Assembly: GCF_034531395.1 (NCBI RefSeq)
Contig: NZ_JARVCO010000010.1
Span: 620,001 to 684,000, forward strand
Direction: 5' to 3'
From: Pontiella agarivorans
GTDB lineage: Bacteria > Verrucomicrobiota > Kiritimatiellia > Kiritimatiellales > Pontiellaceae
Length of the DNA: 64,000 nucleotides
Positions 22,001-38,703 of the stretch are shown piece after piece (the first letter of the stretch is position 1; each line of letters begins with the position of its first letter). A program made the translations under genes and the position numbers. The notes beneath the pieces were generated by a model. That model was given only the letters and a program-made list of their open reading frames with translations. It searched no databases and was not told the origin of the DNA.

Positions 22001-24748
22001 TTTCGAGCGCTCGGTTTGCAGCCAGTAATCGGTTTGCTCGCCGCCCAGAACCGAGCGGGCCGCCCGGTAAAGGTTCTCTTCAACCCGCAGGTTCAGTCCG
22101 GCATAATCGGCCAGTCCGGCGCGATAATCTTCGTTGCCGGAATAGTGGCCGGGTCGTTCCATATCGCCGGTATCCGGGCGCATACCGGAGAGGAGGATTA
22201 CAGCGGGGCCCACATTCAGATCGGAGGATAGCTGAGATTGGTCATTCCGGATGAAATGCCCGGGCATATAAAAACGCCCGTTATTAAAGTTTGATGCTTC
22301 CTGCGCATAAAGGCCGTTTTGTCCGCGGCCCCAGCGGATGTCGGTGGCGTTGAAATAGACCGGGAGGTCGAGCCCGCCGTCTTTACTGAATGTCATGAAA
22401 TAATCGTTGGGAACGAGAGGAAGGGTTTCCGGATCGGCCGGGGCTGAACAGGCGGCTTCCGCACAGGTGGTGGCGTAGGTGATGGATAGCGCGCCGGGGT
22501 CGGCCAGTGCGCTGCCCGTCGTCGGCAGGTCATCCGTCAACTCAAGCTGGCTGCTGTAGTTCCAGCTGATTTCCGGACCATAGGGGAGGTGCGGTGAAAA
22601 ATAGCCGGGGCTCAATGCGAGTTTTGTGCTCAAGCGAGCGTCTTCATTGGCGGTGGTGGTTACTGTGATATCGGATTGGACGGAATCGACAAAGCGATAG
22701 TATTCCGCGTTGGAGCGTTTGAGGGCGAGGTTCGGGTCGACCATATTCGAACTGTTGCTTTCCAGAAATTCATGCCCGGCGGTACGGGTGCAGACGATGG
22801 AGCCTTCGTGGGTGAATTCAAAGGTTCCGAGGGTTGGATGCCAGGTGGCGCTCGTGGCGGCAATCCACAGCGGTTTGGTTTCTTCCGAGAGTTGGAAGTT
22901 GGCATTGCGGGTGAGGGAGGTGTTCATGCTGAGCGCGGTATCGACCGGAACGTCATAGAATTCGATCGTGGAATCCATCATGTAGGTTTGGTGGGTGGAA
23001 ATGCCGAGCCCGGAAGGCAGCCGAACCTCCACATCCACGGTGCCGCCGTTGGCGGTGAGCCGGACCGGGGACGAGAAGGTGTAATGGATATCCTGCTGCT
23101 CGAATTGGTCCGGCACATCGACGTTAATCGTCTGCCAATCGGCGGGGTTCATGGTGTAGTCCAGCGTGGCGGGATCTTTAATGGCCTGAAGATTCGTAAA
23201 GGTGAACGGATAGCCCGAAAGCAGGCCGGTTCCGCTGATGGTGTGGTGCGTGTCGGAAGTGCGGCTCCAATCGGTCACGGTAATTTCAGTTTCGATGTCG
23301 TCGAAATACAGTTTGCCCGAATACTGGTTGATCGTGATCGGCAGGGTGGCGGTATTGTTGTTTTCCCGGCCCTCATTGATTTGGTTGTCGGCGTCGGCTT
23401 CGATCAGAATCGTGTAGTTGTTTTTGGCGAATTTTTCCGTACCGGGAATGTAGAAGTTTGCGGTCCAGTCATCCTCCTCCGTTTCAAGCGCTGGAAAGCT
23501 GATATTCCGGTTTGCGCTGTTGGAAAATACCGGTGTGGCCCCGTCGAGTATGGTGAAGCGGTATGCTGTATTCGGATAGGATTCGGCGGCGACTCCACTG
23601 CGCAGTGTGGTCTGGAGTTCAATCGGAATGTTCCGGGTGCCGAGTACGGTTTTCCAGATGTTGTTGGTGTTGGAAACGAAGAGATAGTCGGCATCATCGA
23701 GGTCGATATCCGCATTGGAATAGATCCGGATATCATCAAATTCGCGGCCGTCGGTCGGCCAGCTGTAATTGTCCACCTGCTGGAATTTAATGACTGGATT
23801 TCCAGTAATTGGAATGCCGTTCTGTGCGGCCAGGGCGTTAATGTCGAGGTTGAAAGTTTGCCAGCCGGTGGTTCCGTTCGGCAGATCATAAATTTTTGTG
23901 AATGAGGTGCCGCTGTCATTACTTAGGAAAATGCCGTCGCCGGGCTGGTCTTCCTCCCCGGATGCGCGATGTTTGAAACTGAGAGTAACCGGATCTAAGC
24001 CTTCGATATCGACCACCAGGCCAAGACTGTTGGTCGCAGTTTGTCCCGCGGAAATGCTGTCGTCCATACGCATAACCATATTGGTGGCGAGATCCAATTT
24101 CTGGACATATGTGAGACTGCTTGGTGAAGCGCCGGAAATGGAGTTGGCCGCCGGATAGCCGCTTGCGGTATAGCCGCCGAGGCTTTGCCCGAATGCGGTC
24201 TGTTGCGGATGGGAGCCGGAGGTGCTGTAGCGCGCCGAGTTATTCCAGGCCGCCCCGATCATATAGTATTTGCCTTCTTTCAGGATGGTGTTCAGTGTGC
24301 CGTAGACATAGTTGGTGCCGACCGGTGCGGTGACGGTGTTGGAGGAAATCAGCGAATACGTACCGTTTTCCGTCGCGCTTTCATAGACCAGAAGCTGTAC
24401 GGAGGTGGATTGCGGCCGGCCGAGGTAAAAACCCTGACGCGTGAGCTCCACGGTCTGGTCACACTCAAAAAAATTGCCCCGCATCCGGTTGCTGCCGGTG
24501 TAATGGTTCGGGTTGATAAAGAAGCCGGGAATGTTGTCGGTAACCACTGATTCGGTATCCCCGCGCAATTCAATGCGGCCTTCCGGAGAGGAGTCATAGA
24601 TCCACAAAATATCATTCGGCAGCGTGGCCTCATCGAAATCCTCGCGAATCGGGGGAGCCATTGAAAAAGCACTCGGGGAGATCGTCAGTAGAGTAAGCAG
24701 GCTTAAAAGCCGGAATAATCGAGTTGAACCGGAAGAGTGAGTCTTCAT
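19052..24748 (-). CDS. Giant exported protein of unknown function with CARDB-like domain and coiled coil
   Basis: First gene of the operon. The ATG at 24748 is preferred over an upstream TTG at 24784, because an AAAGGGA ribosome site precedes it and the signal peptide then starts properly (MKTHSSGSTRLFRLLSLLTL, ending near SPSAFS). The product is about 1898 aa. Visible parts: a beta-rich N-terminus; a CARDB-like unit near 380-480 (NYTILIEADADNQINEGREN); a long middle region; an alpha-helical, coiled-coil-like stretch near 1450-1620 (LNETLEELKPALDTAREYL); and a C-terminal region rich in glycine and hydrophobic beta strands (GEGWMPIVDYG, GPIGGKVFLGAEGEA). Paired cysteines near the end (GPCPFC) may form disulphides. 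The function is unknown. Confidence 0.6.
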   Translation of the reverse strand: MKTHSSGSTRLFRLLSLLTLLTISPSAFSMAPPIREDFDEATLPNDILWIYDSSPEGRIELRGDTESVVTDNIPGFFINPNHYTGSNRMRGNFFECDQTVELTRQGFYLGRPQSTSVQLLVYESATENGTYSLISSNTVTAPVGTNYVYGTLNTILKEGKYYMIGAAWNNSARYSTSGSHPQQTAFGQSLGGYTASGYPAANSISGASPSSLTYVQKLDLATNMVMRMDDSISAGQTATNSLGLVVDIEGLDPVTLSFKHRASGEEDQPGDGIFLSNDSGTSFTKIYDLPNGTTGWQTFNLDINALAAQNGIPITGNPVIKFQQVDNYSWPTDGREFDDIRIYSNADIDLDDADYLFVSNTNNIWKTVLGTRNIPIELQTTLRSGVAAESYPNTAYRFTILDGATPVFSNSANRNISFPALETEEDDWTANFYIPGTEKFAKNNYTILIEADADNQINEGRENNNTATLPITINQYSGKLYFDDIETEITVTDWSRTSDTHHTISGTGLLSGYPFTFTNLQAIKDPATLDYTMNPADWQTINVDVPDQFEQQDIHYTFSSPVRLTANGGTVDVEVRLPSGLGISTHQTYMMDSTIEFYDVPVDTALSMNTSLTRNANFQLSEETKPLWIAATSATWHPTLGTFEFTHEGSIVCTRTAGHEFLESNSSNMVDPNLALKRSNAEYYRFVDSVQSDITVTTTANEDARLSTKLALSPGYFSPHLPYGPEISWNYSSQLELTDDLPTTGSALADPGALSITYATTCAEAACSAPADPETLPLVPNDYFMTFSKDGGLDLPVYFNATDIRWGRGQNGLYAQEASNFNNGRFYMPGHFIRNDQSQLSSDLNVGPAVILLSGMRPDTGDMERPGHYSGNEDYRAGLADYAGLNLRVEENLYRAARSVLGGEQTDYWLQTERSKYYVRPSGVTGIHEAEPYSFPDTLEIYGYLHQFDQYGLSYLSGNPVESRTDGLVMLPYPSSFDVEYDGLRFDCLGEILGGELANASDKLMAYWNAVIDPRTFFYAPTDASTCANSARVLCLGITTACANIDGLLSGVLGFMPNGNLANKAAGVQNVDSRLSLPDRIQLDGPGSEEYHFTPILSAYYNDYENRGGGSADIGWINFAGALDVAFFDDLNVLFHTSASTNSSTAPIYMTGGFSDGSAQTFHVNPGTFDELNAGKPSGVIVDDFRNPYTDQYRVHARKTWLEIVNFDYPLNWSTSTKSFQSAEPVENDIVVLKLEHQADYLSADHAEISFGVQYDGLPQINIANMAFNAIDEQTGMASAVLNSVNSNLFQTIFSGLTQFDNLLADVPEKLFEPILAQSVDPIVDELYTALNNAYAAAPDTDYYSSLIQGYVAGPVGSVQQQLEDLVDTSGNAVNMLDEIDEHLEQALRVIDAFVNTVEYDPLTGQQLAQPISGLLNLQGTQFEFLGDLAAGIIGTMAADLANELAGELVPELNETLEELKPALDTAREYLTEIRDVIEEAKAQLAAGESFVRELQNALDPAQLQAAMDAAVSDLTEQFDDLQAAGDLFEEYTAEEIKTLIRQSIEDRFYASLACCNIQQVIRSRLYDVQASVETAIDGVFQQVNTAIKNVIGEYLTAIDEEINGMLGDLSDLVGAGQIDGYAHVKHDSLTELRLDGAFQWKVPEEMEFSAYMIIRQLNADGSSSCGLPGDNATEVILGTDDVGLSWVGSDLRAKINTKFAFSSGPFKPIGLAGAFEMTEGSVSFEAFKITELYAAAAFGARENYLSAALRCEMTSFEVEGGVFFGRTCSLDPFAWDPDVQGILGDPPFTGVYVYGEGWMPIVDYGCLFRIKAGVGAGMFAFLEGPIGGKVFLGAEGEALCVVGVRGEVTLVGMKNGDLMRMKGKGKISGKVGPCPFCVKFSASAEITYENGDWDADY

Positions 24749-24961
24749 CGCTTGTTCCCTTTTTAAAAAGTCCGGAGGGATCAATGTAAGGCGATGCCTA
24801 GAAACCCCTCTCTTTGTTTTTTCAGCAGTTCGAAGCTATGATTGAGACTCATTATTGTCAATGTTAACTATATTAAGATTAAATATTAATAAAAGATTCG
24901 CCCAGGATGAGTTCGTGGATTTTGATTTATTCAATCGCAGAAAATAGGGTATCGATGGTTT

Positions 24962-25618
24962 ATGAAAAAGGGATTGATGATCACTGTAGCGGCATTTTCT
25001 GCCATCTATGCCACCGCCCAACTGGAGTGGGAAGCGGATTTTATCCGGCTGGGAGCGCACCCGCTGCAGGAAAAGATGCAGGTTGAATTCAGGTATAGAA
25101 ACCCCGGGAATCAGTCGGTGGAAATGATCCGGGTGGATTCCTCCTGCGGATGTCTGGTTCCGCAGAAAGGGCCGCGCACGATAGCGCCGGGGGAGTCGGG
25201 GAGCATTACTGCTGAATTCATGCTGCGCGGTCGCAGCGGAAAACAGAAAAAACATATTCTGGTCACCACCGACAGGAATACGCAGGTTCCCTACCGGCTC
25301 GATATTGAAGTGAATATTCCCGACAGCTATCTGCCCTCGGTTAAGCGGGTCATCTGGGAGCGTGCGGAAGCCTATGAATCCCGCACGGTCAGGCTGACGA
25401 ACCACTATCATGAACCGATCAATCTGATTGAGGTGCTTCCAAGCATTGGAACGCTCAGAACAGAGCTGAAAACGGTAAAACCGGGGTTTGAATATGATCT
25501 CATCATTACGCCGGATCCCGGCGTGAAAAATCTCCGGGGGTTCATCCGTCTGAAGCCGGAACCGCTGTCCGGTGAACATAAAACCCGCGACTTTAAAGTA
25601 TATGTTTTTGTCCGGTGA
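24962..25618 (+). CDS. DUF1573 domain exported protein
   Basis: The 218-aa protein has a signal peptide (MKKGLMITVAAFSAIYATA) followed by an Ig-like fold. The family hallmark is RVDSSCGCLVPQKG then IAPGESGSITAEF, the typical DUF1573 strand pair with its cysteine pair. The rest (residues 120-218) is a second beta domain ending in a charged KVYVFVR strand. DUF1573 proteins are exported and uncharacterised. The gene is divergent from the giant-protein operon across a 213-base AT-rich gap (24749-24961) that must hold both promoters. A perfect TTCCAA palindrome lies inside at 25437-25451. It is separated by 147 bases from the next operon and may not belong to it. Confidence 0.8.
   Translation: MKKGLMITVAAFSAIYATAQLEWEADFIRLGAHPLQEKMQVEFRYRNPGNQSVEMIRVDSSCGCLVPQKGPRTIAPGESGSITAEFMLRGRSGKQKKHILVTTDRNTQVPYRLDIEVNIPDSYLPSVKRVIWERAEAYESRTVRLTNHYHEPINLIEVLPSIGTLRTELKTVKPGFEYDLIITPDPGVKNLRGFIRLKPEPLSGEHKTRDFKVYVFVR
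25437..25451. repeat. Perfect palindrome TTCCAA-GCA-TTGGAA inside a gene
   Basis: Exact 6-3-6 palindrome within the DUF1573 gene, where it encodes L-P-S-I-G-T. The reading phase differs from the copies in ligA and cusA, which encode Q-S-L-E, so the conservation is at DNA level. Confidence 0.7.
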
Positions 25619-25765: not shown

Positions 25766-26995
25766 ATGGCTGCGCAGGCAACGATTCTGATTCCGGGAAT
25801 TAAAGGAACGAAACTGCTCAATTCCAATGAGGTGAATCACGACACCATCTGGTCGGGGATTCAGAGTAATTTTGAATCGATCGACGATTTGGCTCTGACC
25901 AAAAGTTACCGCAACCGGTATTATGATGAAGCCCTCGAATCTATTATCCAGCCTAGCGAGGTGGAGTTGCTGGCCTACGGCGAGCTGGTGGGGGAATTGC
26001 GGAAAAATTCCAGCCGGCCGGTGTATATTTTCAACTACGACTGGCGCTATTCGAATGTCGAGAACGGCGAGCGGTTGCAGGACTTTATCGGCTATCTGAT
26101 TGCCAAATCAAAAGCCCGCCGGCGGGTAGACCCGAAGCAACCGGTGTTTTCATCGTTCGATTTCATTACGCACAGTATGGGAAATCAGGTGTTTCGTTCC
26201 TACCTGAACCTTGCCGGGTTTCGTTATGTTAATAAAGCGGTGCTTGCGGTGCCCCCGTTCCTCGGCTCGCTCGAAATCATATCAGGACTGATTAAAGGCG
26301 AAGGTTTTTTTGCGGGAACGAAAGAAAGCATGCGTAAATTGGTACGTACCTGGCCCGGTGCTCTGGAACTGCTGCCGCGTTATGCCGGGGTTTCCCGTTT
26401 TGAAAACGGCGCGTTGCATAATTTTTACAACCTTAATCACTGGCAGGATAATCTGGTGGATATCAAGCCGGACGATTCCGCCGAAAAAACGGCGCGCAAA
26501 GAAAAGCTGAAAGCACTGATCCGCCGCGGTAAACGGATGGTGGAGCAGGAAATGGTGGATCTCGACCAGCTTTCAGCTGCGGAAAAAAAGCGGATTCTGA
26601 TCGTGGTGCGGGACGGCTATAAAACGATGCAGTCGTTGCAGGTGCTCAAAAACGTTCCGCCGCCCGGACCAGTGAATTTATTCAACCTTTCGAAGGTGGC
26701 CGTAAGCAAAGACGGCGACGGCGCCGTGGCGCATGCGAGTTCCTGCTGCTATGCCCGTCCCGACGATTCCGGTGTTAAAACCGTGGCTCTGATCAAGGAC
26801 TTCTGGGCCAACGACAACAGCCATGGTTTTGTGCTCAACGAAGGACGCCTGCAAAGGCTGATCCAGCGGTTCCTCTATTCCGCCGAACCGTTTGATCACC
26901 GTATTCCCGGAAACTCGGTACGTGAAGTGGCCGGCGTGAATGAACGCAGCTGGGGGCACAACCTCTCGCGTTGGGAACTGGTGTTTAAAGACTGA
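25766..26995 (+). CDS. LCAT-like alpha/beta hydrolase (predicted esterase or acyltransferase)
   Basis: The 409-aa protein begins MAAQATILIPGIKGTKL, the opening strand and oxyanion loop of lecithin:cholesterol-acyltransferase-like hydrolases. The nucleophile elbow is THSMGN (Ser near residue 137), a common variant of GxSxG in this family, and a candidate catalytic His lies in DNSHGFVL near 352. The ATG at 25766 is chosen because GGGAGG precedes it by 6 bases; the frame stays open to 25730. There is no signal peptide, so it should act in the cytoplasm or at the inner face of the membrane. It is first in a tight operon with a lipoprotein (20-base gap) and a giant membrane protein. Substrate unknown; a phospholipid or acyl ester is the family expectation. 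Confidence 0.7.
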   Translation: MAAQATILIPGIKGTKLLNSNEVNHDTIWSGIQSNFESIDDLALTKSYRNRYYDEALESIIQPSEVELLAYGELVGELRKNSSRPVYIFNYDWRYSNVENGERLQDFIGYLIAKSKARRRVDPKQPVFSSFDFITHSMGNQVFRSYLNLAGFRYVNKAVLAVPPFLGSLEIISGLIKGEGFFAGTKESMRKLVRTWPGALELLPRYAGVSRFENGALHNFYNLNHWQDNLVDIKPDDSAEKTARKEKLKALIRRGKRMVEQEMVDLDQLSAAEKKRILIVVRDGYKTMQSLQVLKNVPPPGPVNLFNLSKVAVSKDGDGAVAHASSCCYARPDDSGVKTVALIKDFWANDNSHGFVLNEGRLQRLIQRFLYSAEPFDHRIPGNSVREVAGVNERSWGHNLSRWELVFKD

Positions 26996-27015
26996 TCAAA
27001 GAAGGGGAGGGCATT

Positions 27016-27870
27016 ATGAAAATCATCCTGTGTTTGGCCGTGATACTGGGGGCTCTTTCGGGGTGTAAAACCACAGCGGTTTGTACCGCTCCGAAGGTCA
27101 GTCCGGGCTACTATCCCATTGATCCGCTGCCGGTGCAGCTGGCTTTGCCCGATGGCTATGAGCCGCAAAAAATGAATGAAGCGATTCTGGCAGTCCTGCC
27201 GGATGAAACCATGCGCCTCTCGGTGGGATCCTTTACCTATTCCGGAGGGATTACCTATGGGCCGGCTGGCGGGAGCTTCAGCAAAGGCAGTTATGTGGTG
27301 GTGCTCGATTATATCAAATATACCACGCTGCCGGTGGGCATCATGGAAATCGAAGCTTCGACGAATGCTTGGCTGGAAGCGGTGGAGTATGGGACCGATG
27401 CGCCGATGTCAACCGGGCTGTTTGCCGGCGTCGGCCTGCGGTTGACCGCAAACCTGAGTGTGCTGGAGTCGAATGTGGATCTAGGCAGTCTTTTTGCTAT
27501 TGGAGCTGCCGCGGAAGCGAAAAAAGTCTCGGGATCAATGGTGATTCAAACACTGGGGATCAGCGGGGAGCCGGTTTCGACGATGTTGCCGATGCCCAGC
27601 GAGATCAGCCAGTCGAGCATCCAGAATGCCATGCTGGCGCTTGGGGCGATTAAGGCCAAATTGTATGAAGATGATATCACCATTTCCCCCCGGATTCTCG
27701 GTTTCAACAACACCTATTGTAAAACCCCGGAAGCGATCCATTATTTTACGGCATCGCTCCTGAATATGCCGCGGCCTTACCCGCCGATCAACTTGGTGCA
27801 GGAGTTTGCGGTACAGGCCTGCTATGGCGATGACGATGTCGCGTTGGCTGATGATGGTGAATCGGACTAA
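27016..27870 (+). CDS. Lipoprotein of unknown function
   Basis: The 284-aa precursor has a clear lipobox (MKIILCLAVILGALSGCKTT, Cys at residue 17), so it should be lipid-anchored in the cell envelope. The mature part is mostly beta and small residues (YSGGITYGPAGGSFSKGSYV near 75-95, GLFAGVGLRLTANLSV near 136-151) and ends acidic (DDDVALADDGESD). No family is recognised. A GGGGAGGG site precedes the ATG. It lies between the LCAT-like hydrolase and the 1334-aa membrane protein with gaps of 20 and 42 bases, so the three products probably work together. Confidence 0.7.
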   Translation: MKIILCLAVILGALSGCKTTAVCTAPKVSPGYYPIDPLPVQLALPDGYEPQKMNEAILAVLPDETMRLSVGSFTYSGGITYGPAGGSFSKGSYVVVLDYIKYTTLPVGIMEIEASTNAWLEAVEYGTDAPMSTGLFAGVGLRLTANLSVLESNVDLGSLFAIGAAAEAKKVSGSMVIQTLGISGEPVSTMLPMPSEISQSSIQNAMLALGAIKAKLYEDDITISPRILGFNNTYCKTPEAIHYFTASLLNMPRPYPPINLVQEFAVQACYGDDDVALADDGESD

Positions 27871-27912
27871 GTACGCCGGCCCGCGACCATAATGCGTGTA
27901 TAAGGAGGCGGT

Positions 27913-30900
27913 ATGAAGATGTTCGGAATCGGTTCGAGCCCGATCTCGTCGGGAAATTTGATTCTGATCTTTAGTGCAATCATCGGTACAGTGATTTCCA
28001 ACAGTCGTACGACGCTGAAATCGCACCGTCCCGAAATTGCCGAAGAGGTCGTGGTGGAACCGTCCGGAAATCAGGTGGACGCACGGCTTTGGGAGGACCC
28101 TTTTGATGTGCTGGAGCGTTGGGGGAAGCGGTATCCTGAAACGAATGCCCGGGCCGAACTCAGAAGCCTGAAAGAGATTCTCGAGACCCGGGTGGATAAA
28201 CTGATTGTTCCGGTGATGACCGATGATGGGCACTATCCGGAAATGAGGGAGAATCGGATTCAGCAGCGGTATGCCGTTTTGGCCGCACTGAGTACCTCGA
28301 ACTACAAACCGAACAGTCCGCAGAAGATGAATATCGGCAGGCTGGTGATCGGGGGCGTTACCAACACGGTACCGTATGAATGGTTTTCCCGGGATAAATC
28401 CAAGCCGGAAGTCTATCCGGCGGGTGGGTTAAATGGGCTGGCCCCTGCGTATGAGCAACCGGACAATTTGTACGGCAATGAATTTGAACATGTGTGTATT
28501 CTCTGGTTGCGCAGTGATTTTCTGGGTACTGCGGCTAAAGCGATCGTTTCTCCGGGACAGGGACCGCTGTCCGATTACCGGAAATTATCCGAAGCTCTGG
28601 CTCCTGCGGCGGAGCGGGGTAAACGGGGAGTATGTGATATTCGGATCATTGGCCCCCGTTCATCCGAAGGAATCCGGCGGATACTGCAGGAAATCGAGGC
28701 GTTTCGGGCGAGCGGGGTATGGCTGGAGGAGTCGATTCAGATACTGAAGAAACAGCTCCGCGAGCTGGCGGCGGGGCAGCAGGATGAGACGGTTGCCGGT
28801 GTTGATTTTAAGCGACAGGGAAATAACGGGGGGACCGAACAGGAATACAGGGCTGCTGTGACCGGGCTGAGTAAGGAAATCTGGAAGTATATGCAACCCG
28901 GGTGTAATGCCCGTCTGTTCAGTAGCCTGCCGTTCGGGGGCAAGGAGATCGGTACGAAGGAATCGGCAGGTATTGTGATCAATATCAGCCTTTACGGTGA
29001 GGAACTGGTTCGCGCGGAGAAATTGAGGATTTACCGCGGTACGCTGACGGCGATTGCAGAGGAAGAACAGAAGTTGAGAGCTGCACTCTTTAAACTGGAA
29101 AATAAACTGTGCGAACTGGAACAGCAGCGTGAGGATGCCGCGAGTGGTGAACAAATCAACTCCAGCCCGGTCCACATCCTTTCGAATGAATTCAATCTGG
29201 TACAGACCCGGCAAAAACTGGAGCTCCTCGGACAGCTGCGGGAACAGCTTATCAGGAGGGCCGGCGGAAAAGAAAATCGGTTTTCCCGTGGAAATGATCC
29301 AGAGCCGCAGCAGTTCCACCATGACTATCTGCAGCAGGGAAGCGCAGCGGATGATTATCAGCGTTTTGAGGCGTTGCTGAATTTGTGTACTGATGAGATC
29401 GATCGCCTGCCCTTTTACCGCTCCAAAAGGAAAGCACGGATTGCTCTGGAAGAGGTTCGCAGTGGGTTTGTAAAAGCAGCGAAAGACTGGGCCGAAAGGG
29501 AAGCGGAAATAAAAATAGAAGCAGCATTCACGAAAATTCGTGAGATGCAGACCAATAGACGGGCGAGTGTCAATGCTTCGATGAAACACCGGATCAGCAG
29601 GCTTGAGACTGCCCACATAGCCGTCGGCCGGGTAGTGAAAAATGAACAGGCCGAAGCGGGCGCGATGAACGGAATCAAAAGCCTGTATGCCACCCCCGTC
29701 TGCAGCGTCTTTTCACCTTGGGCCACGGCGGATAATTATCTGTTGAATGCGGATCTCTCCAACGGCAGGAAATTCAACGAGCTGCTGAATAAAAAATATG
29801 ACAGCGGAACAACCTCCGGCCGCGACGCGCTGGCGGAGTTGCGGAAGGAGATTCTTTATCTCCACGGTATTCATTTCAATCGTACGGTGCAGAAGGATAA
29901 ACGCGTGGCGAAGGCCCTTGTAGATGAGCTGAGCCGGCGCGGGGCCATCTTGCCGCCGGGCAATCCGCGTGAAACGCCGGCCCGGATTGTTTTGATCGGC
30001 GAATGGGATTCCGTATTCAGCCGGGCGCTTTCAACTACTTTTGCGCTGGAATATCTTCAGCGGCAGGGACGTTCGGCACTCCAGTGGCCGGAGGAGATTG
30101 AGGTGTTTGAATATCTGAGGGGGATTGATGGGTTGATGCCCGGTGCGGAACATGTTGATGTTCCAAAGTCTGGAAACGATTCTGGTAATGGGCAGAGCCT
30201 TTACCATACGTTGGGGCTGCGCTATCCGGATGGGTCCAGTCAGTATGACTATCTGCGCCGCCTGGCCGGGCGTGTTCAGAAGATCAATACCGAGGGCCAC
30301 CGGGTTACGGCGGTCGGAATTTTCGGCAGCGATGCTTATGACAAACTGCTGATTCTGCGGGCGCTGCGGGGAAAAATTCCTGATGCGGTATTTTTTACAA
30401 CCGACCTCGATGCCCGGTTTTTTCATGCTGACGAGTTGAAATGGACCCGCGGTCTGGTAGTCGGGTCGAGTTACGGACTGGAACTCTCACCCACGCTGCA
30501 GCAGCGGACGGCACCGTTTAGAAATACCTATCAGACCGGATTGTATGCGACCATGTTCACGGTGTTGAACGGGGCTCCCTGGGCCTTCAATATCGATGAT
30601 TATGATCCTCGTATTTTTGAAATCGGCCTGCAGGGTGCGGTTGATCTCTCAAACCGGGACACACAAATCGGGGAATTTTTTCTGCCGCTGCATCCCGAAC
30701 CGGATAATATCTGGCGCAAACACGTTGGCCGTATTGTTCTTCTTCTGGGGCTGGGGCTTGTTGTTCCGGCGCTCTTCCTCGGAGTGTTCGGTTATTTCCG
30801 GTCCGCTGGCGGAAATCCGGGCACGATGAAGCCGGCTTTTTACTGGCTGCTGTTTGCCGGGGCGTGCGGCGGGGTCGTTGTATTATTTTTTCAGACTATG

Positions 30901-31917
30901 GCTGCAAGCGGAGAAGACCCATACGGCGGGGAGCCCTTCACCGTTTTCGGGGGGATATCGATTTGGCCTTCGCTCATGATCCGTATTCTGGTTTTCATCT
31001 GTTCGCTCTATTTTATCATCAGAACCTATTTTTCAATCCGAAGCGATTCTCATTCGGTCGCGGCGGAATTTGGGTTTAAAACCGGCTGCTTGAAAAAGAC
31101 AGAATTCGGATTCCTTGAGAATCTCCTGTGGCCGTTCCGGCGGAATACAGCCGAAACTGATATTGCGCGGATTTGGAGCGCATACAGCTGGCGGCGCGGC
31201 ATCGGCTGGATTTATGTTGTACTGCTGGCCGCGACCATCATTTACGGCGGTTTGGCCGGGGCGGTGGTGCGTTGCGATCAGCCGTTTACCCCTTACCGCG
31301 GTACACTGGCGCTGGTGGCGCATCAGGGTTCGCTCCGGCTGGCGTTGATCAGTATGATTTTGCTCTGCGGTGTCACGGTTTACACCTTGCTGCGCAGTAC
31401 GCGTTTGATCTGCAACCTTTACCGCCGTAACAAAGAACGCTACGACCCATGTTGCTGGCATCACAGTGAAATGCGGGCTTTGGACTGCCGTGTGCATTTA
31501 AACAATATTTATCTCGTAGGCCGGGTTACGGAAACCACCGGCCGGATTATTGTTTATCCGTTTGTGGTTCTGTTTCTGATGATTCTTTCGCGGTATTCTC
31601 TGATTGATCTGTGGGATTGGCCGCTTCCGCTGGCGGGTGTGGTCGGCTTGACCGTGTTTGCTGCTCTTTTTTCGGCGGTCTACCTGAGATACAAAGCGAA
31701 GGAAATCCAGAAACGCGCGTTTGATCTGCTCCAGCTGGAAAAACTTAAAAAACCGGAGAATAGTGAAGAAGTCGATCGATGTATCGAACAGATCGCATCC
31801 TGTGAACGGGGTGCTTTTGCTCCTCTTTCGAGTAATCCGATACTTCTTGCTGTTTTGACGCCGTTCGGCGGCATCGGAGCTGTTTCTATCATTCAGAGCA
31901 TGGTTGCGGGCCTGTAA
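27913..31917 (+). CDS. Giant inner-membrane protein of unknown function
   Basis: The 1334-aa protein has one hydrophobic segment near the N-terminus (NLILIFSAIIGTVISN). A large soluble region of about 900 residues follows, with helical, coiled-coil-like parts (about 370-410 and 520-570). Near 690-880 comes an alpha/beta part with strands such as ARIVLIGEWDSVF and VTAVGIFGSDAYDKLLILRA and then AVFFTTDLDARFF. This last part loosely recalls a Rossmann-like or periplasmic-receptor-like fold, which is a guess from strand pattern. About seven membrane helices fill residues 940-1335. The start ATG is preceded by AAGGAGG. It ends the esterase-lipoprotein operon. A palindrome copy lies at 30161-30175. 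No known family is recognised with confidence. Confidence 0.65.
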   Translation: MKMFGIGSSPISSGNLILIFSAIIGTVISNSRTTLKSHRPEIAEEVVVEPSGNQVDARLWEDPFDVLERWGKRYPETNARAELRSLKEILETRVDKLIVPVMTDDGHYPEMRENRIQQRYAVLAALSTSNYKPNSPQKMNIGRLVIGGVTNTVPYEWFSRDKSKPEVYPAGGLNGLAPAYEQPDNLYGNEFEHVCILWLRSDFLGTAAKAIVSPGQGPLSDYRKLSEALAPAAERGKRGVCDIRIIGPRSSEGIRRILQEIEAFRASGVWLEESIQILKKQLRELAAGQQDETVAGVDFKRQGNNGGTEQEYRAAVTGLSKEIWKYMQPGCNARLFSSLPFGGKEIGTKESAGIVINISLYGEELVRAEKLRIYRGTLTAIAEEEQKLRAALFKLENKLCELEQQREDAASGEQINSSPVHILSNEFNLVQTRQKLELLGQLREQLIRRAGGKENRFSRGNDPEPQQFHHDYLQQGSAADDYQRFEALLNLCTDEIDRLPFYRSKRKARIALEEVRSGFVKAAKDWAEREAEIKIEAAFTKIREMQTNRRASVNASMKHRISRLETAHIAVGRVVKNEQAEAGAMNGIKSLYATPVCSVFSPWATADNYLLNADLSNGRKFNELLNKKYDSGTTSGRDALAELRKEILYLHGIHFNRTVQKDKRVAKALVDELSRRGAILPPGNPRETPARIVLIGEWDSVFSRALSTTFALEYLQRQGRSALQWPEEIEVFEYLRGIDGLMPGAEHVDVPKSGNDSGNGQSLYHTLGLRYPDGSSQYDYLRRLAGRVQKINTEGHRVTAVGIFGSDAYDKLLILRALRGKIPDAVFFTTDLDARFFHADELKWTRGLVVGSSYGLELSPTLQQRTAPFRNTYQTGLYATMFTVLNGAPWAFNIDDYDPRIFEIGLQGAVDLSNRDTQIGEFFLPLHPEPDNIWRKHVGRIVLLLGLGLVVPALFLGVFGYFRSAGGNPGTMKPAFYWLLFAGACGGVVVLFFQTMAASGEDPYGGEPFTVFGGISIWPSLMIRILVFICSLYFIIRTYFSIRSDSHSVAAEFGFKTGCLKKTEFGFLENLLWPFRRNTAETDIARIWSAYSWRRGIGWIYVVLLAATIIYGGLAGAVVRCDQPFTPYRGTLALVAHQGSLRLALISMILLCGVTVYTLLRSTRLICNLYRRNKERYDPCCWHHSEMRALDCRVHLNNIYLVGRVTETTGRIIVYPFVVLFLMILSRYSLIDLWDWPLPLAGVVGLTVFAALFSAVYLRYKAKEIQKRAFDLLQLEKLKKPENSEEVDRCIEQIASCERGAFAPLSSNPILLAVLTPFGGIGAVSIIQSMVAGL

Positions 31918-31942: not shown

Positions 31943-34900
31943 TCATTTTCCCCTGGCGGAAAATGTGCCGTCCCGTCCTATTTCTGATTCCTGGCGCCAG
32001 CAGTAGAGCACGGGTACGACGAGCATGGTGACGATTTCGATGAGCATGCCGCCGAAAGAGGGGATGGCCATGGGGACCATGATGTCGGAACCGCGGCCGG
32101 TGGAGGTGAGGACCGGCAGCAGGGCGAGGATGGTGGTGGCGGTGGTCATCAGGCAGGCGCGCACGCGGCGGTTTCCGGCCTGAAGAACCAGTGCGCGGAC
32201 TTCGTCTTTTGTGGTCGGGGTGTTTTCGCGGAAGGTCTGCGTGAGATAGGTGCCCATCACGACGCCGTCGTCGGTCGCAATGCCGAACAGCGCCAGGAAT
32301 CCGACCCAGACGGCCACGCTCATATTGATGACGTGCACCTGAAACAGGTCGCGCATCTCAGTGCCGAACAGGCTGAAGTCGAGAAACCACAGCTGGCCGT
32401 AGAGCCAGATCAGAATGAAGCCCCCGGACCACGCAATAAAGACGCCGGTGAAAATGAGGAAGGTGGTATACGCCGATTTAAACTGAAAGTAGATCAGCAT
32501 GAAGATGGCGAAGAGCGCGATCGGCAGCACCATCGAAAGGGTTCTGGATGCCCGCAGCTGGTTTTCGTAGGAGCCGGCAAAACGATAGCTTACGCCGCGC
32601 GGTAAACTGAATTCGCCGCTGTCGATTTTACGCTGCAGGTAGGCCTGGGCCTGCTCCACCACATCGACTTCCGCGTGCCCCGGCTTTTTGTCGAAAACGA
32701 CGTAGCCGACGAGGAAGGTATCCTCGCTCTTGATGTTCTGCGGGCCGCGTACATAGTTGATTTCGGCCAGCTGAGTGATGGGGATCTGCTGTCCTTTCAT
32801 TCCGGGAATCAGCACCTGTTCAAGCGCTTCGATATTATCGCGCAGCTCCCGCTGATAGCGGACCCGGACGGGAAAGCGCTCGCGGCCCTCGACGGTGCCG
32901 GTCACCTTTTTGCCGCCAATGGCGATTTCGATAATGTTCTGGAACTTGCGTATCGGAATGCCGTAGCGGGCGAGTGCCTCGCGGTCGGGGACGATTTCGA
33001 GGTAGGGCTTGCCGACGATGCGGTCGGCAATGACCGCCGCCGGTTCCACGGACGGCACCTCTTTGAGGTAGCGCTCAATCTCGAGGCCCACCCGCTCGAT
33101 GGTTTCGAGGTCCGGGCCCTGCACCTTCACGCCCATGGGCGCGCGCATGCCGCTTTGCAGCATTACGATGCGCGCGGCGATCGGCTGCAGCCTGGGCGCG
33201 GAGGTGGTGCCGGGAATTTTTCCGGCCTTTACAATCTCATCCCAGATGTCGTCAGGCGACCGGATATGGTCGCGCCATTGGCGGTAGGGCCGGCCGCGTT
33301 CATCCTCAATCAGCTGGCCTTGGGTATCCCGGACAAATTCTCCGTCTTCATATCTGAAGTTGAGGCGCTTTCCGTTGGGGTCGATTCGGAACTCCGGCTT
33401 GTAGTTGATCACCGTCTCGATCATGGAGATCGGCGCGGGATCCAGCGAGGTTTCGGCGCGCCCCAGCTTGCCGACGGCGGAAGCGATTTCCGGGATCGAC
33501 TCAAAGGCCATATCCTGCTTTTGCAGAATATCCAGCGCTTCGCCGATGGAGGCGTGCGTCATGGTGGTCGGCATCCAAAGGAAGGAGCCTTCGTCGAGGG
33601 TCGGCATGAACTCTTTTCCAAACCCTGGAAACGCGTGGGCGACCTTCTGAACCGGCGGCGTTTTCTCTATAAAGTCGGGCAGCCAGCCGAAGGTTTTACT
33701 GAATCCAAGCCAGCTGGTTGTTCCGAGAATCAGGAGTGCCAGCGGAAGCGCGAGGAAGGCGGATTTATGGTTCAGGCACCAGCGCAGGATCGGGGCGTAA
33801 AAGTGTTGGAACACCCGGAAGAAAAGGAGCAGGCCGCCGATCAGCAGGGTCACGAAAACCAGATTGCGCAGTGTGCCCGCTTGCGGTCCGAGCGGTTCCC
33901 ATTCGATCGTCAGCCAGCAGCCCACCAGCAAAACGGTGAAGATGATCGGGAAGTATTTTTTCAGGATGCCTCGGATGGAACGCCGGCCGGTCTTCGGCGC
34001 CGCGCCCGGCGAACGCGCCCGGCCGAACAGGGTATGCGCCAGTACGGGCAGGACGGTGAGTGCCAGAATGATCGAGGCGACCAGAGCCACCGTTTTGGTG
34101 AAGGCGAGCGGTTTGAACAGTTTGCCTTCGGCCCCGATCATGGTGAAGACGGGCAGGAAGCTGATGACGGTCGTCAGCACGGCGGTCAGTACGGCGCCTC
34201 CGACTTCCGAGGCCGCCCGGTGCACCACGTCGATGCGCGGTTCTTCGGGGTCGGCCCGGTCGAGGTGCCGGATGATATTTTCACAGATGACAATGCCCAT
34301 ATCGACGATGGTGCCGATGGCAATGGCGATGCCGGAGAGGGCGACAATGTTGGCCTGTACGTTGAAGAGTTTCATGCCGATGAAACAGAGCAGCACGGTC
34401 AGCGGCAGCATGGTGCTGATGGCCAGCCCGGAGCGCAGATGCATGACCATGATCAGCACGACGATGATGGTGATGAGGATCTGCTGAACGATGGCTTCGT
34501 TCAGGGTGCCCAGCGTTTCATAAATCAGGCCGGTGCGGTCGTAGAACGGGATGACGGTCAGCTGGCTGACGGTGCCATCGGCCAGCGTCTTTTTCGGAAG
34601 GCTCTGCGCGGTGGCGGCAATCTTTTCTTTTACGTTCCGGATCACGCGGAGCGGGTTGTCGCCATAGCGCGCGACCACCACGCCGCCGACCGCCGGGGCG
34701 CCGCCTTTATCGAGCGCGCCGCGCCGCTGCGCCGGGCCGAGGGTGACGTCGGCGACATGTTTGATCAGCACGGGAACACCGTCGGCGTTGACTTTGATGA
34801 CGCTGTTTTCGATGTCTTCCAATGATTGGATAAATCCGACGCCGCGGATGAAATATTCGACGCGGTTGACTTCCAGGTTTTTCGCGCCGACATCGAGGTT

Positions 34901-35632
34901 GGCGCCCTGTACGGCTTGGTAAACCTCATCCACACTCACGCCGAAGGCGCGCATGGCATCGGGATCGACATCGACCTGGTATTCGCGCACAAAGCCGCCG
35001 ACGGAGGCCACTTCGGCGACGCCGTCGGCGGAAAGGAGCCAGTAGCGGGCATACCAATCCTGCGTGGTGCGCAGCTCTTCGGGATCCCATCCGCCGGTCG
35101 GGTTTCCGTCGGGGTCGAGGCCTTCGAGCGTGTACCAGTAGACCTGTCCGAGCGCGGTGGCATCCGGCCCCAGCGTCGGCTGCACGCCGTCGGGCAGGGT
35201 GCCGGCCGGCAGGCTGTTGAGTTTTTCCAGCACACGGGTGCGCGACCAGTAAAATTCCACATCCTCCTTGAAGATGATGTAGATCGAGGAAAAGCCGAAC
35301 ATGGAGTAGGAGCGGATGGTTTTAACGCCGGGAATACCGAGCAGCTGAACCATCAGCGGATAGCCGATCTGGTCTTCGACATCCTGCGGCGAGCGGCCCA
35401 TCCATTCGGTGAAAACAATCTGCTGGTTTTCGCCGATGTCCGGAATCGCGTCAACGGCGACCGGGTAACGCTGCAGGTCGCCGATTTTCCAATCGAACGG
35501 CGCCGTCAGCAGACCGCCGAAAATGACGGCCGCGGTGAACAGCGCGACGATGAGCCTGTTCTCCAGACAGAAGCGGATCAGCCGGCCGACCGCTGAACGT
35601 TGTTCAACCGTCTGTGCGGGGTCAGTGTGCAT
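31943..35632 (-). CDS. cusA: CusA/CzcA heavy-metal efflux RND pump
   Basis: Proton-driven inner-membrane pump of a tripartite metal exporter. About 1229 aa, slightly above the usual 1020-1050 because of inserted charged loops. Visible features: the first helix (RLIVALFTAAVIFGGLL), QDVEDQIGYPLMVQL, the CzcA-type membrane motif AIGTIVDMGIVICENIIRHL, and twelve predicted helices in two groups. The ATG at 35632 is preferred, 7 bases after a GGAG site. It overlaps the cusB stop by 11 bases, so translation is probably coupled. Palindrome copies lie at 33616-33630 and 34817-34831. The CsoR regulator upstream points to copper or silver as substrate. Confidence 0.92.
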   Translation of the reverse strand: MHTDPAQTVEQRSAVGRLIRFCLENRLIVALFTAAVIFGGLLTAPFDWKIGDLQRYPVAVDAIPDIGENQQIVFTEWMGRSPQDVEDQIGYPLMVQLLGIPGVKTIRSYSMFGFSSIYIIFKEDVEFYWSRTRVLEKLNSLPAGTLPDGVQPTLGPDATALGQVYWYTLEGLDPDGNPTGGWDPEELRTTQDWYARYWLLSADGVAEVASVGGFVREYQVDVDPDAMRAFGVSVDEVYQAVQGANLDVGAKNLEVNRVEYFIRGVGFIQSLEDIENSVIKVNADGVPVLIKHVADVTLGPAQRRGALDKGGAPAVGGVVVARYGDNPLRVIRNVKEKIAATAQSLPKKTLADGTVSQLTVIPFYDRTGLIYETLGTLNEAIVQQILITIIVVLIMVMHLRSGLAISTMLPLTVLLCFIGMKLFNVQANIVALSGIAIAIGTIVDMGIVICENIIRHLDRADPEEPRIDVVHRAASEVGGAVLTAVLTTVISFLPVFTMIGAEGKLFKPLAFTKTVALVASIILALTVLPVLAHTLFGRARSPGAAPKTGRRSIRGILKKYFPIIFTVLLVGCWLTIEWEPLGPQAGTLRNLVFVTLLIGGLLLFFRVFQHFYAPILRWCLNHKSAFLALPLALLILGTTSWLGFSKTFGWLPDFIEKTPPVQKVAHAFPGFGKEFMPTLDEGSFLWMPTTMTHASIGEALDILQKQDMAFESIPEIASAVGKLGRAETSLDPAPISMIETVINYKPEFRIDPNGKRLNFRYEDGEFVRDTQGQLIEDERGRPYRQWRDHIRSPDDIWDEIVKAGKIPGTTSAPRLQPIAARIVMLQSGMRAPMGVKVQGPDLETIERVGLEIERYLKEVPSVEPAAVIADRIVGKPYLEIVPDREALARYGIPIRKFQNIIEIAIGGKKVTGTVEGRERFPVRVRYQRELRDNIEALEQVLIPGMKGQQIPITQLAEINYVRGPQNIKSEDTFLVGYVVFDKKPGHAEVDVVEQAQAYLQRKIDSGEFSLPRGVSYRFAGSYENQLRASRTLSMVLPIALFAIFMLIYFQFKSAYTTFLIFTGVFIAWSGGFILIWLYGQLWFLDFSLFGTEMRDLFQVHVINMSVAVWVGFLALFGIATDDGVVMGTYLTQTFRENTPTTKDEVRALVLQAGNRRVRACLMTTATTILALLPVLTSTGRGSDIMVPMAIPSFGGMLIEIVTMLVVPVLYCWRQESEIGRDGTFSARGK

Positions 35633-37436
35633 GGGCATGCTCCGCTTTTTCCGGTTCAATGCCTTCGGCGCGCATCTGCTTCAGGTATTGGTCGGGATTT
35701 TCTTTGAAGGTGCTGTCGCAGCCGGGGCAGCAGAAATAGATCCGCATGCCGTCGTGGTCGATGTAGACGTCTTTGTTGATGGGATTACCCATGACGGGGC
35801 AGAGGGTTTGAGGCTGTGGCACCTTTTCAGGTTCAATGCCTTCGGCGCGCATTTTTGCGATATATTTTTCCGGGTCGGCTTTGAACTCGCCGTCGCACCC
35901 GGCACAGCAGAAATAGATGCGCATGCCGTTGTAATCGACATAGACGTCTTTGTTGATTTCGCCGCCCATGACCGGGCAGCGGGTTTGCGGTTTTAGCGTT
36001 CCGCTTTCGGTTTCCGACTCCTCGCTCTCCGAAGACATCATGCTCGGTTTGGCGCGGATCTGCAGCTCGGCATCGAGCTTGAAGGCGCCGCGGGTGACGA
36101 CGTGCTCGCCTTCGTCGAGGCCGCTTTCGATGGCGTAAAAGTCGCCGAAGCGTCCGCCCAGCACGACCACGCGACCTTCGTAGGTCGGTTTTTCCTGATC
36201 AGGAATCTCGACGTAGACGACGGCGCGTTTGCCGGTTTTCAGCGCGGCGGAGACAGGAATCAGCAGTGGGGCGTTGGATTCGTTTTCGGAAACATAGCCC
36301 AGCGATTCCGCCGTCACGAGCGGCATACCGCAGACGTCGCAGGGGCCGGGCTCGTCCTTGATCACTTCCGGGTGCATCGGGCTGATCCATTTGCCGGCCA
36401 GTCCGGGATTCATGATTCTTCCATCCTGCGCGACTCTGGGGCGGGCGACGGCCCGAACGAACATGCCGGGCTTGAGCGTTCCGTCCGCATTTTCGACAAT
36501 CACACGAACTTTGGCGGTGCGCGTGGCGGCGTTGATGATCGGATCGATGAAGGAGATGGTGCCTTTGAACGCGCGCCCCGGATAGGCTTCGGTTGTGAAC
36601 TCCACCGAACCGCCGTAGCGCAGGCCGCTGAGGTCGGACTCATAGGCATCGAGCAGGATCCAGACTCTGGAAAGGTCGGCGATGGTATAGATCGGGGTGC
36701 CGGTTTTCACGTACATGCCCTCCGTCGCGTTCTTATGAATCACAATGCCGGCGGCCGGCGAATAGAGAGTCATATGATCGCTGGGGGTTCCGCGCACTTC
36801 TGTTTCGGCAATCTGCCCGGAGGTGAAGCCCCAAAGGCGCAGCTTTTCGCGCGCGGCAACCACCGTCTGTTCCGCGGTTTCGAGCAACAGGGAGCTTCGG
36901 CTGTTTTTGAGTTTTTCCAAGGTCTGGAGCGCCTGAATCAGTTCCTCCTGCGCGGTTAGCAGTTCGGGGCTGTAGAGCTCGGCGAGGTGCTCGCCTTTTT
37001 TGACGGGGATGCCGGTGTAGTCGACAAACAGCCGGTCGAGGCGGCCGGCGACCCACGCTGAGATGGTCGATACCCGGGTTTCATCATAATCGACCTTGCC
37101 GACCATGCGGATTTCGGCTTCCGCAAAGCGGCGCTGAACCTCCGCGGTTTCCAGTTCCATCAGTTTGGCGGCATAGGGGCTGACGCTGATTTCACGCTCG
37201 CCGCCGCCGTCATCATCGGCTTCCAGCGGAATCAGGTCCATAAAACAGATCGGACATTTTCCAAAGGCTGGAAGCTGGATCTGAGGATGCATGGAGCAGG
37301 TCCATATCTCCGGGGCGGTTTCGGCTGAATGGGCGTCTTCTTCGTGATGATCGTCGGAGGAGACCAAGCACCCGCGCAGGATGAAGCCCGCAAAGAGCGC
37401 GATGATCATGAACAGGATGGGCTTAGTACGTTTCAT
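35622..37436 (-). CDS. cusB: CusB-like membrane fusion protein with two HMBD and two YHS modules
   Basis: Periplasmic adaptor linking pump and outer-membrane channel. The 604-aa protein has an N-terminal membrane or lipid anchor ending RGCLVSS; Arg at -2 makes the lipobox atypical. It carries a heavy-metal-binding domain (WTCSMHPQ ... CPICFMDL, about 45-72) and adaptor core. A second such motif lies near 351-378 (ISPMHPEV ... CDVCGMPL). At the C-terminus are two YHS/TRASH-like modules near 484-540 and 543-600 (CPVMGG ... RIYFCCAGC; CPVMGN ... RIYFCCPGC), ending AEHAHAH. The two C-terminal modules repeat with a 177-base (59-residue) period. Four metal-binding modules on one adaptor is unusual. 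It overlaps cusC by 14 bases. Confidence 0.9.
   Translation of the reverse strand: MKRTKPILFMIIALFAGFILRGCLVSSDDHHEEDAHSAETAPEIWTCSMHPQIQLPAFGKCPICFMDLIPLEADDDGGGEREISVSPYAAKLMELETAEVQRRFAEAEIRMVGKVDYDETRVSTISAWVAGRLDRLFVDYTGIPVKKGEHLAELYSPELLTAQEELIQALQTLEKLKNSRSSLLLETAEQTVVAAREKLRLWGFTSGQIAETEVRGTPSDHMTLYSPAAGIVIHKNATEGMYVKTGTPIYTIADLSRVWILLDAYESDLSGLRYGGSVEFTTEAYPGRAFKGTISFIDPIINAATRTAKVRVIVENADGTLKPGMFVRAVARPRVAQDGRIMNPGLAGKWISPMHPEVIKDEPGPCDVCGMPLVTAESLGYVSENESNAPLLIPVSAALKTGKRAVVYVEIPDQEKPTYEGRVVVLGGRFGDFYAIESGLDEGEHVVTRGAFKLDAELQIRAKPSMMSSESEESETESGTLKPQTRCPVMGGEINKDVYVDYNGMRIYFCCAGCDGEFKADPEKYIAKMRAEGIEPEKVPQPQTLCPVMGNPINKDVYIDHDGMRIYFCCPGCDSTFKENPDQYLKQMRAEGIEPEKAEHAHAH
35653..36000 (-). 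repeat. Two tandem 177-base coding repeats (YHS modules of CusB)
   Basis: The block starting at 35653 and the one starting at 35830 share GGTTCAATGCCTTCGGCGCG exactly and much of what follows, including the CAGCAGAAATAGAT and TAGACGTCTTTGTTGAT segments. Each encodes one CPVMG ... YFCC-GC module. The high DNA similarity points to a fairly recent in-gene duplication. Confidence 0.7.
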
Positions 37437-38703
37437 GGTTTGCTCCGTGAAGTAAATCCAGGCCGGTCAGCCGGCTGAGGTCGGCGCGGTGTTTGAGGTG
37501 GTCGGCCAGCGCGCGTTCATAGGCGAGCTGGAATTCGAGCAGGATGCGTTCGGCATCCATCAGGTTGATGAATTCCATCTGTCCGGCTTCATAGGCAGTG
37601 CGGTTGACCTCGAGCGATTGCTCGGCCTTGGGAATCAGGCTCTCCGCGTAGAGATTGATTTTACGGTCGGCGTCGCGCAGGTTGTAGAGCGTCCGCTTGA
37701 TGTCGGCTTCCAGCGTTCGTTCGCGATTTTGCAGGGTAAGTTCCGCGGCGGTGCGCTGATAGTTTGCGGCTGCGACGCGGGCGCTGTTTTTTCCGGCCCA
37801 AAGCGGGATGTTGATGCCGATGGTTCCCATGATTGGATCTTTTCCATTATCCGAAACGGGGGTGCCGGCATCATCGGTCTGGATATACTGGACGCCGAGC
37901 GTGAAGTCGGGCAGGCGTTCGCGTCGGGCCAGGGCAACCTGATGAACGCCCCGCTCCACATTCCGCGCCAGGGCGGCCAGCGACGGGCTGGTATGATTCA
38001 GGTTTTCAAGCAGCGCTTCTTCGTCGGGGGCGATCCGGACGTAGGGGATTTCCGCCGGCCATGGCAGCGGCGCATCGGCCGGCCGATTGAGCGCGGCGTT
38101 AAGGCGGGCGACCTGCGGTTGGCGCAAATCGTTCAGGGATGAGAGGCGGTCTTCGAGGCGGCCGAGCTCAACCTGCGCCTGAAGGATCGGTGCCATGGGC
38201 GAGCCGGATTTGTAGCGGGTGCGGGCAACCTTTTCCAGATCGCGGATGAGCCGGATGCGGTCCTGTGTGATATCGATGCTGCGCTTCAGGTAATAGAGTT
38301 CGGCATAGGCCTGCGTGATCGCAAAATCGAGGTTGAGTTTTTCCTGCTTATAGTTTTCCCCGTAGGCGGCGGCCAGCGCGGTGGCGGCGGCCTTTTTGGC
38401 GGCGCGTTTTCCAAAGCCCGGAAAGGTCTGGGCCAGCCGGAACTGGTGATTCTGCGGCCCGACCCGGGTTTCGACCGATTCAAAATAATAGCCGTAGGTG
38501 AAGGCGGGGTCGGGCAGCGCCTTCTGAACGGCAATGTTTTCTTCATAGCCCTTCCAGCGATAAAAGGCGGCCTGGAGCTGCGGATTATTTTCCGCTCCGG
38601 CTTCCAGCGCCGCCTGCAGCGTGAGGTGGGTTCCGAACGGATCGGCATAACTGCTCAGCAGGGCGGCGGTGAAGAACGCTGGAATCAGTAATCGTTTTTT
38701 CAT
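37423..38703 (-). CDS. cusC: CusC/TolC-family outer-membrane efflux protein
   Basis: Outer-membrane channel of the copper/silver exporter. The 426-aa precursor has a signal peptide (MKKRLLIPAFFTAALLSSYA) and two related OEP halves. Typical pieces are LQAALEAGAENNPQLQAAFYRW near 30-51 and LTLQNRERTLEADIKRTLYNLRD near 315. The second repeat ends in an ALADHLKHRADLSRLTG helix. It overlaps the cusB start by 14 bases and follows the YHS protein gene by 59 bases. A palindrome copy lies at 38409-38423. Confidence 0.9.
   Translation of the reverse strand: MKKRLLIPAFFTAALLSSYADPFGTHLTLQAALEAGAENNPQLQAAFYRWKGYEENIAVQKALPDPAFTYGYYFESVETRVGPQNHQFRLAQTFPGFGKRAAKKAAATALAAAYGENYKQEKLNLDFAITQAYAELYYLKRSIDITQDRIRLIRDLEKVARTRYKSGSPMAPILQAQVELGRLEDRLSSLNDLRQPQVARLNAALNRPADAPLPWPAEIPYVRIAPDEEALLENLNHTSPSLAALARNVERGVHQVALARRERLPDFTLGVQYIQTDDAGTPVSDNGKDPIMGTIGINIPLWAGKNSARVAAANYQRTAAELTLQNRERTLEADIKRTLYNLRDADRKINLYAESLIPKAEQSLEVNRTAYEAGQMEFINLMDAERILLEFQLAYERALADHLKHRADLSRLTGLDLLHGANHETY

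Follow-up and report, generated by a model that had tools for sequence, protein, structure and literature searches.

A large protein of Pontiella agarivorans predicted to join a periplasmic Venus flytrap domain to seven membrane helices, encoded beside an LCAT-family hydrolase

In a stretch of 64,000 nucleotides from the genome of Pontiella agarivorans, here called the window, three tightly spaced genes encode a hydrolase, a lipoprotein, and a membrane protein of 1334 residues. This raises the question of what such a large membrane protein may do and whether the three genes form one system. A reading-frame check confirmed all three genes where the original prediction had described them, at the positions listed below. 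They are on one strand, with spacings of 20 bp between the hydrolase and lipoprotein genes and 42 bp between the lipoprotein gene and the large gene. That description did not contain the DUF1573 gene upstream of the trio. The locus comprises the following features, with the evidence in parentheses.

24962 to 25618, + strand: gene for a DUF1573 protein, upstream neighbor (Pfam DUF1573, E value 2.9e-20)
25766 to 26995, + strand: LCAT-type hydrolase, 409 aa, without signal peptide, proposed lipolytic partner (PF02450, motifs)
27016 to 27870, + strand: lipoprotein, 284 aa, lipobox LSGC, proposed accessory (sequence; relatives in genomes G381, G301, and G157)
27913 to 31917, + strand: flytrap-7TM receptor-like protein, 1334 aa (reading frame, hydropathy, models)

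The three open frames are real genes: the hydrolase and the lipoprotein have counterparts in a further genome of the genus that are 88% and 82% identical, respectively, to the products encoded in the window, and homologues of the large protein occur in at least eight phyla. The hydrolase gene starts with an ATG at position 25766, with GGGAGG ahead of it as a good ribosome-binding site. As predicted, its sequence identifies the product as an LCAT-family hydrolase: it matched Pfam LCAT (PF02450) with an E value of 1.5e-8 and 34.7 bits, compared to a curated cutoff of 21, and possesses the serine nucleophile motif HSMGN at residues 136 to 140. Candidates for the remaining triad are located in DGDGAV (316) and NDNSHG (349), and a signal peptide was not evident. 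The N terminus of the lipoprotein, MKIILCLAVILGALSGC, constitutes a lipobox, and no family in Pfam or NCBIfam matched this protein above cutoff. The GC content of the operon was 0.52 to 0.55, compared to 0.54 for the window, and this composition gives no clear sign of a recent transfer of the operon.

Both flanks of the locus are on the opposite strand. Upstream, positions 19052 to 24784 of the window encode an apparently secreted protein of 1910 aa with weak CARDB-like and coiled-coil matches, and this protein or parts of it also adjoin the DUF1573 gene in both other Pontiellaceae genomes. Downstream, positions 31943 to 38703 contain a heavy-metal RND efflux set, the parts of which were named by eye as a CusA/CzcA-like pump, an adaptor with metal-binding motifs, and an outer-membrane factor.

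Pfam, NCBIfam, and PADLOC gave no match to the large protein, which agrees with the original view of an uncharacterized set of genes spanning the envelope. When named genomes were searched with a core alignment of four homologues as the query, at least 80 loci were found in at least eight phyla; a single-sequence query found none. The hosts were Nitrosomonas, Nitrosospira, Nitrospira, Nitrotoga, Pseudomonas, Burkholderiales, planctomycetes, verrucomicrobia, acidobacteria, deltaproteobacteria, and others. This is a sparse, unnamed bacterial family that is larger than these 80 loci, and 17 of 399 genomes in a Burkholderiales sample carried it. The large gene is present as a single copy in its own genome. 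Its nearest named relative according to the homologue search and a tree is Pontiellaceae bacterium B1224. This tree is a quick one with long branches and an unsafe deep order, and the three Pontiellaceae copies grouped together in it with full support.

Nitrifying bacteria of several genera and two phyla contributed about 17 of the 80 loci listed (L011-L013, L017, L018, L020, L022, L024, L025, L027, L028, L031, L032, L038, L046, L055, and L067). A Nitrospira copy grouped with a Nitrosovibrio copy with full support, which suggests a transfer of the large gene among nitrifiers. Two other settings of the large gene deserve mention. In the same phylum as Pontiella (L097:10971-16551), a copy of 1372 aa is preceded by two same-strand genes, one for a coiled-coil protein of 1598 aa that may have a lipobox, the other for a likely lipoprotein of 287 aa. 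In a zetaproteobacterium (L074:3048-10075), the large gene comes after genes in the same orientation that were named by eye as ftsA-, ftsZ-, and lpxC-like.

The 1334-aa protein could be divided into the following parts.

27940 to 28002, + strand: N-terminal membrane helix, residues about 10 to 30 (hydropathy over the alignment)
28081 to 28104, + strand: family hallmark ARLW(E/Q)DPF, residues 57 to 64 (column counts, 63 sequences)
28195 to 28782, + strand: first part of the modeled flytrap domain, residues about 95 to 290, with GPxxS (Ser251) (AlphaFold2 model, Foldseek, conservation)
28783 to 29691, + strand: helical insertion in the flytrap domain, residues about 291 to 593 (mostly helical stretch of the model with low confidence; alignment A1)
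29692 to 30627, + strand: remainder of the modeled flytrap domain, residues about 594 to 905 (AlphaFold2 model, Foldseek, conservation)
30727 to 31689, + strand: seven-helix membrane bundle, residues about 939 to 1259 (hydropathy, charge pattern, homologue model)
31834 to 31896, + strand: weak last hydrophobic segment, residues about 1308 to 1328, membrane placement uncertain (hydropathy, homologue model, column counts)

According to hydropathy over 42 aligned homologues, an N-terminal helix precedes a long soluble region, which is followed by seven clear C-terminal helices and the weak last segment, so that the predicted count of one N-terminal and about seven C-terminal helices was correct, with the weak segment in addition. 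The N-terminal hydrophobic helix was present in all 63 sequences and was followed by the conserved RLWQDPF motif. The insertion of about 300 residues is missing from most homologues. In the remainder of the flytrap domain, the motifs SPWAT (Thr605), EWDSVFSR, SQYDYLRRL, GSDAYDKLL, and FFTTDL (Asp831) were found. If the N-terminal helix is taken as TM1, Lys and Arg are abundant in the loops that follow TM2, TM4, TM6, and TM8 and scarce in the alternate loops. Because of this pattern, the soluble region and thus the flytrap domain are predicted to be periplasmic. The most conserved motifs of the membrane region, GEPF-EGxSxWP, PxRG, and FDNW, would be in the periplasmic loops of the bundle.

In the structure models, the soluble part adopts the two-lobed fold of a type-I periplasmic binding (Venus flytrap) domain. 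An AlphaFold2 model of L023, a compact homologue of 959 aa, was built with 63 sequences and displayed an alpha/beta domain followed by seven long helices, with a pLDDT of 82 and a pTM of 0.83. In a Foldseek comparison with the PDB, this model matched class C GPCRs and LIV-type amino-acid-binding proteins, with a best E value of 5.5e-8. The model of the soluble part of the window's protein (903 aa) had a pLDDT of 72 overall and near or above 90 for most of the core, the lower overall confidence being due to the largely helical insertion. The best Foldseek match of this domain was the branched-chain amino-acid-binding protein 3h5l (E value 3.5e-4), and the ectodomain of the calcium-sensing receptor (E value 9.6e-4) was among four matches below 0.001. 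The TM-scores of the structural matches were modest, 0.3 to 0.58 depending on the target, at a high rmsd. Full-length receptors scored hardly better than ectodomains alone, which indicates that the match rests on the flytrap and not on the helices. Residues 690 to 880, recommended in the original prediction as the place to look, hold much of the second half of this domain.

At the sequence level, a comparison of 58 soluble domains with Pfam gave no match to families of the type-I periplasmic binding protein superfamily, and searches of PDB sequences with profiles of the whole protein, the soluble part, or the TM region gave no credible match. Weak PDB profile matches to class A GPCRs were rejected as homology, because a profile of the TM region alone failed to return them. 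A profile-profile alignment with LIV-BP-like proteins was collinear but weak (E value of 0.005 for one comparison, probability of 7%), and due to this weak similarity, homology to LIV-BP-like proteins rests on the structure models.

The motifs of the family, GPxxS, SPxAT, RTIxxD, EWDTxYGR, and FFTTDL, occur in the same order as in LIV-BP and mGluR, and four positions in them can be considered for ligand binding. Of the 63 sequences, 61 have Ser at position 251, and 60 have Asp at position 831. At position 605, 59 sequences have Thr and 3 have Ser; at position 702, 59 have Tyr and 3 have Phe, and the window's protein has Phe. The equivalents of these four positions in mGluR1 and LIV-BP, assigned from the motif order, are presumably those that bind the alpha-amino and carboxylate groups. 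By motif order, not by superposition, Ser251, Thr605, and Asp831 would be located at amino-acid-binding positions. Since the presumed equivalents in mGluR1 and LIV-BP bind amino-acid groups, an amino-acid-like compound is the best guess, and we infer that the ligand of the flytrap most likely carries an alpha-amino-acid group.

The protein may accordingly be compared with the systems it resembles. It has in common with LIV-BP (Peripla_BP_6) the fold found by Foldseek and the order of the motifs GPxxS, SPxAT, RTxxxD, YGR, and FFTTD, and its conserved residues are at what we take to be the positions binding the amino-acid group in LIV-BP and mGluR. In contrast to LIV-BP, it is predicted to be membrane-anchored at both ends, joined to seven helices, interrupted by long insertions, and devoid of ABC partner genes or a Pfam match. 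Neither the operon nor the recurrent families near the homologues included a permease or an ATPase; therefore, the large protein is not the binding protein of an ABC transporter. Alternatively, the flytrap may be a substrate-binding domain covalently tethered to a novel permease of seven or eight helices, to which it delivers a ligand for uptake or export. The flytrap shares its fold and conserved pocket residues with solute-binding proteins, Pfam found no cytoplasmic signaling domain, and the conserved loops with GEPF-EGxSxWP, PxRG, and FDNW would suit a surface on which such a tethered domain docks. A transporter is nevertheless unlikely, because no ATPase or energy-coupling gene recurs beside the large gene, no transporter family matches the bundle above cutoff, and the neighboring genes lean to lipases and not to substrate metabolism.

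Receptors composed of a flytrap and seven membrane helices are known from eukaryotes as class C GPCRs. The models of the bacterial protein agree with the layout of this class (mGlu, GABA-B, CaSR), a flytrap outside followed by seven TM helices, the weak C-terminal segment being ambiguous, and class C GPCRs were top structural matches. Unlike these receptors, which start with a cleaved signal peptide and have no extra TM helix, the large protein possesses a putative N-terminal hydrophobic anchor, and it comes from a bacterial host, in which G proteins would not be expected. The Pfam family 7tm_3 matched none of 42 full proteins or 35 TM regions, and the TM profile gave no credible PDB match. 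Due to the missing 7tm_3 match and the putative N-terminal anchor, the large protein was not filed as a GPCR. The resemblance of its helix bundle to class C GPCRs is probably convergent. In bacteria, 7TMR-DISM receptors contain an extracytoplasmic domain before seven TM helices. The large protein shares this general plan but has a different ectodomain, and no fused cytoplasmic signaling domain was found in it. According to one paper (PMC8687355), GPCRs are observed only in eukaryotes, and the proposed origin of one class C receptor is that a periplasmic binding protein was joined to a seven-helix protein. A bacterial flytrap-7TM family was not described in the literature searched, which covered few of the subscription journals.

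Pfam recognized no cytoplasmic enzyme or output domain in 42 homologues, so that an output of the large protein must run through a partner. The explanation preferred here, to which we give an even chance, is a periplasmic ligand sensor in the inner membrane that works with a lipolytic partner. The flytrap, of the branched-chain amino-acid-binding or class C receptor type, would close on a small ligand in the periplasm, and its closure would be passed on to the attached seven-helix bundle. The LCAT-type hydrolase, which is without a signal peptide, would act as this partner in the window, and the lipoprotein would serve as an accessory on the envelope side. Patatin, DUF900, PGAP1-like, Tle1-like, or other lipases would replace the hydrolase in some other genomes. 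Models and conservation support the fold and the layout, whereas the ligand, the direction of signaling, and the control of the lipase are inferred. The more specific statement of a bacterial counterpart to class C signaling, in which the receptor senses an amino-acid-like ligand in the periplasm and directly switches an adjacent cytoplasmic phospholipase or esterase, the type of which is exchangeable between lineages, appears rather doubtful.

Evaluation of the lipolytic partner needs to consider the neighbors of the other copies. A lipase or esterase of several unrelated types adjoins the large gene in a minority of the loci. LCAT proteins were beside or near the large gene in the window, G381, and L075, where LCAT is fused to CHAT. 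Patatin occurred at L014 and L042, the latter also with a class 3 lipase, and a phosphoesterase/phospholipase C-type protein at L040. DUF900 was found at L029 and L081, and by similarity at L015; PGAP1-like proteins, below cutoff, at L031 and L083, and by similarity at L068; Tle1-like proteins at L064, and by similarity at L049 and L070. Abhydrolase_2 was a neighbor in Nitrospira, where the cases may reflect shared descent. About 17 new Burkholderiales loci fetched later contained two more lipase neighbors, recognized by eye: L180 has a same-strand gene for a patatin-like protein at 152 bp, and L182 has one for a Tle1/DUF2235-like protein at 105 bp. Hydrolase families topped the tally of the nearest genes, and no hydrolase family was among those listed for genes more than 3.5 kb away (families with at least two members); the similarity queries were drawn from the neighbors, so this count is not unbiased and measures the enrichment only roughly. 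No receptor-lipase fusion was seen among the loci. Most loci, including most of those from Pseudomonas, had no adjacent lipase, indicating that the partnership would be optional or act from elsewhere in the genome. Among bacterial LCAT-type hydrolases, patatins, and Tle lipases, the enzyme in the window is of the LCAT family with the expected motifs, but adjoins a flytrap protein instead of a recognized secretion or CBASS locus.

Two of these neighborhoods are more complex. The verrucomicrobial copy at L075 (12668-15871 and 15893-18001) adjoins the LCAT-CHAT fusion, with a caspase-domain protein on the other strand. In a planctomycete (L015:750-5354), genes for a membrane protein, two lipoproteins, and two DUF900-like hydrolases, of which one carries a lipobox, form a cluster ahead of the large gene on the same strand. 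Lipoproteins defined by a strict pattern were 6 of 246 genes near the large gene and 4 of 395 far from it, which is too small a difference to claim an enrichment.

The recurrence of unrelated lipase types (Tle1-like, patatin) would also be expected of a generic restraint on lipases, in which the flytrap binds no ligand and is a protein-interaction domain that holds or inhibits an envelope lipase or gives immunity against it. LpoA-type activators are a precedent for such use of a flytrap, the insertions in the domain are large and variable, and lipoproteins adjoin some copies. The Ser, Thr, and Asp residues at the putative pocket are, however, kept in more than 90% of the sequences across phyla, no type VI secretion family was among those listed for the nearest neighbors, and most copies have no lipase next to them, all of which makes a scaffold or guard distinctly unlikely. 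A T6SS effector-immunity pair survives only as part of this alternative.

The original prediction had proposed to check whether the trio travels together in other genomes. In a sample of 388 genomes of the phylum, the large gene was present in 6, the lipoprotein in 4, and the hydrolase in 3 genomes, and the full trio in only 2, the window's own and G381 of the same genus. In each of the three Pontiellaceae genomes examined, which include G157 and G381, a DUF1573 gene adjoins the large gene or the operon containing it. G381 keeps the order found in the window, with the trio behind the DUF1573 gene, and the large gene of G157 is directly 3' of DUF1573 with no hydrolase or lipoprotein gene in between. 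Lipoprotein relatives that are not accompanied by the other two genes were found in G301 and, at a differently organized site, in G157, and a distant relative of the hydrolase in G053 stands apart. This distribution indicates that the hydrolase and lipoprotein genes are a cassette that some genomes have and others lack at a syntenic locus, and that the trio is not an ancient unit. Because the large gene, the lipoprotein gene, and a distant relative of the hydrolase each occur in the absence of the other two, the trio was rejected as a conserved system. The large gene of G381 (L096:8569-11631) is without part of the first flytrap lobe and the helical insertion, has a different C terminus, and may be decaying.

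Absence of the hydrolase and lipoprotein genes from the syntenic G157 site, their separate occurrence elsewhere, and the minority of loci with a lipase are consistent with an incidental neighborhood, in which the hydrolase and lipoprotein are unrelated cargo next to a gene for a receptor or transporter. This would be somewhat unlikely, given that lipases of many different types recur beside the large gene, often in the same orientation and within 200 bp of it, and do not appear among the families listed for distant genes. The preferred explanation remains a sensor with a lipolytic partner.

A role in defense, which had been offered beside lipid modification and signaling, found no support. PADLOC matched none of the three proteins, no defense family recurred among the nearest neighbors of the homologues, and no relatives were found in phage, plasmid, and viral-contig collections at the sensitivity used; a defense system was rejected. 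Lipid and signaling roles were rightly listed, so that the original interpretation is partly supported.

To understand their biological meaning, these data may be seen from the side of the family. A bacterial family with the class C order of parts exists in at least eight phyla, including the culturable Pseudomonas and Nitrosomonas, and such hosts make an independent evolution of this layout and a receptor function directly testable. The recurrent lipase neighbors suggest a concrete output to test, and a family without a Pfam name gains a fold and a working hypothesis.
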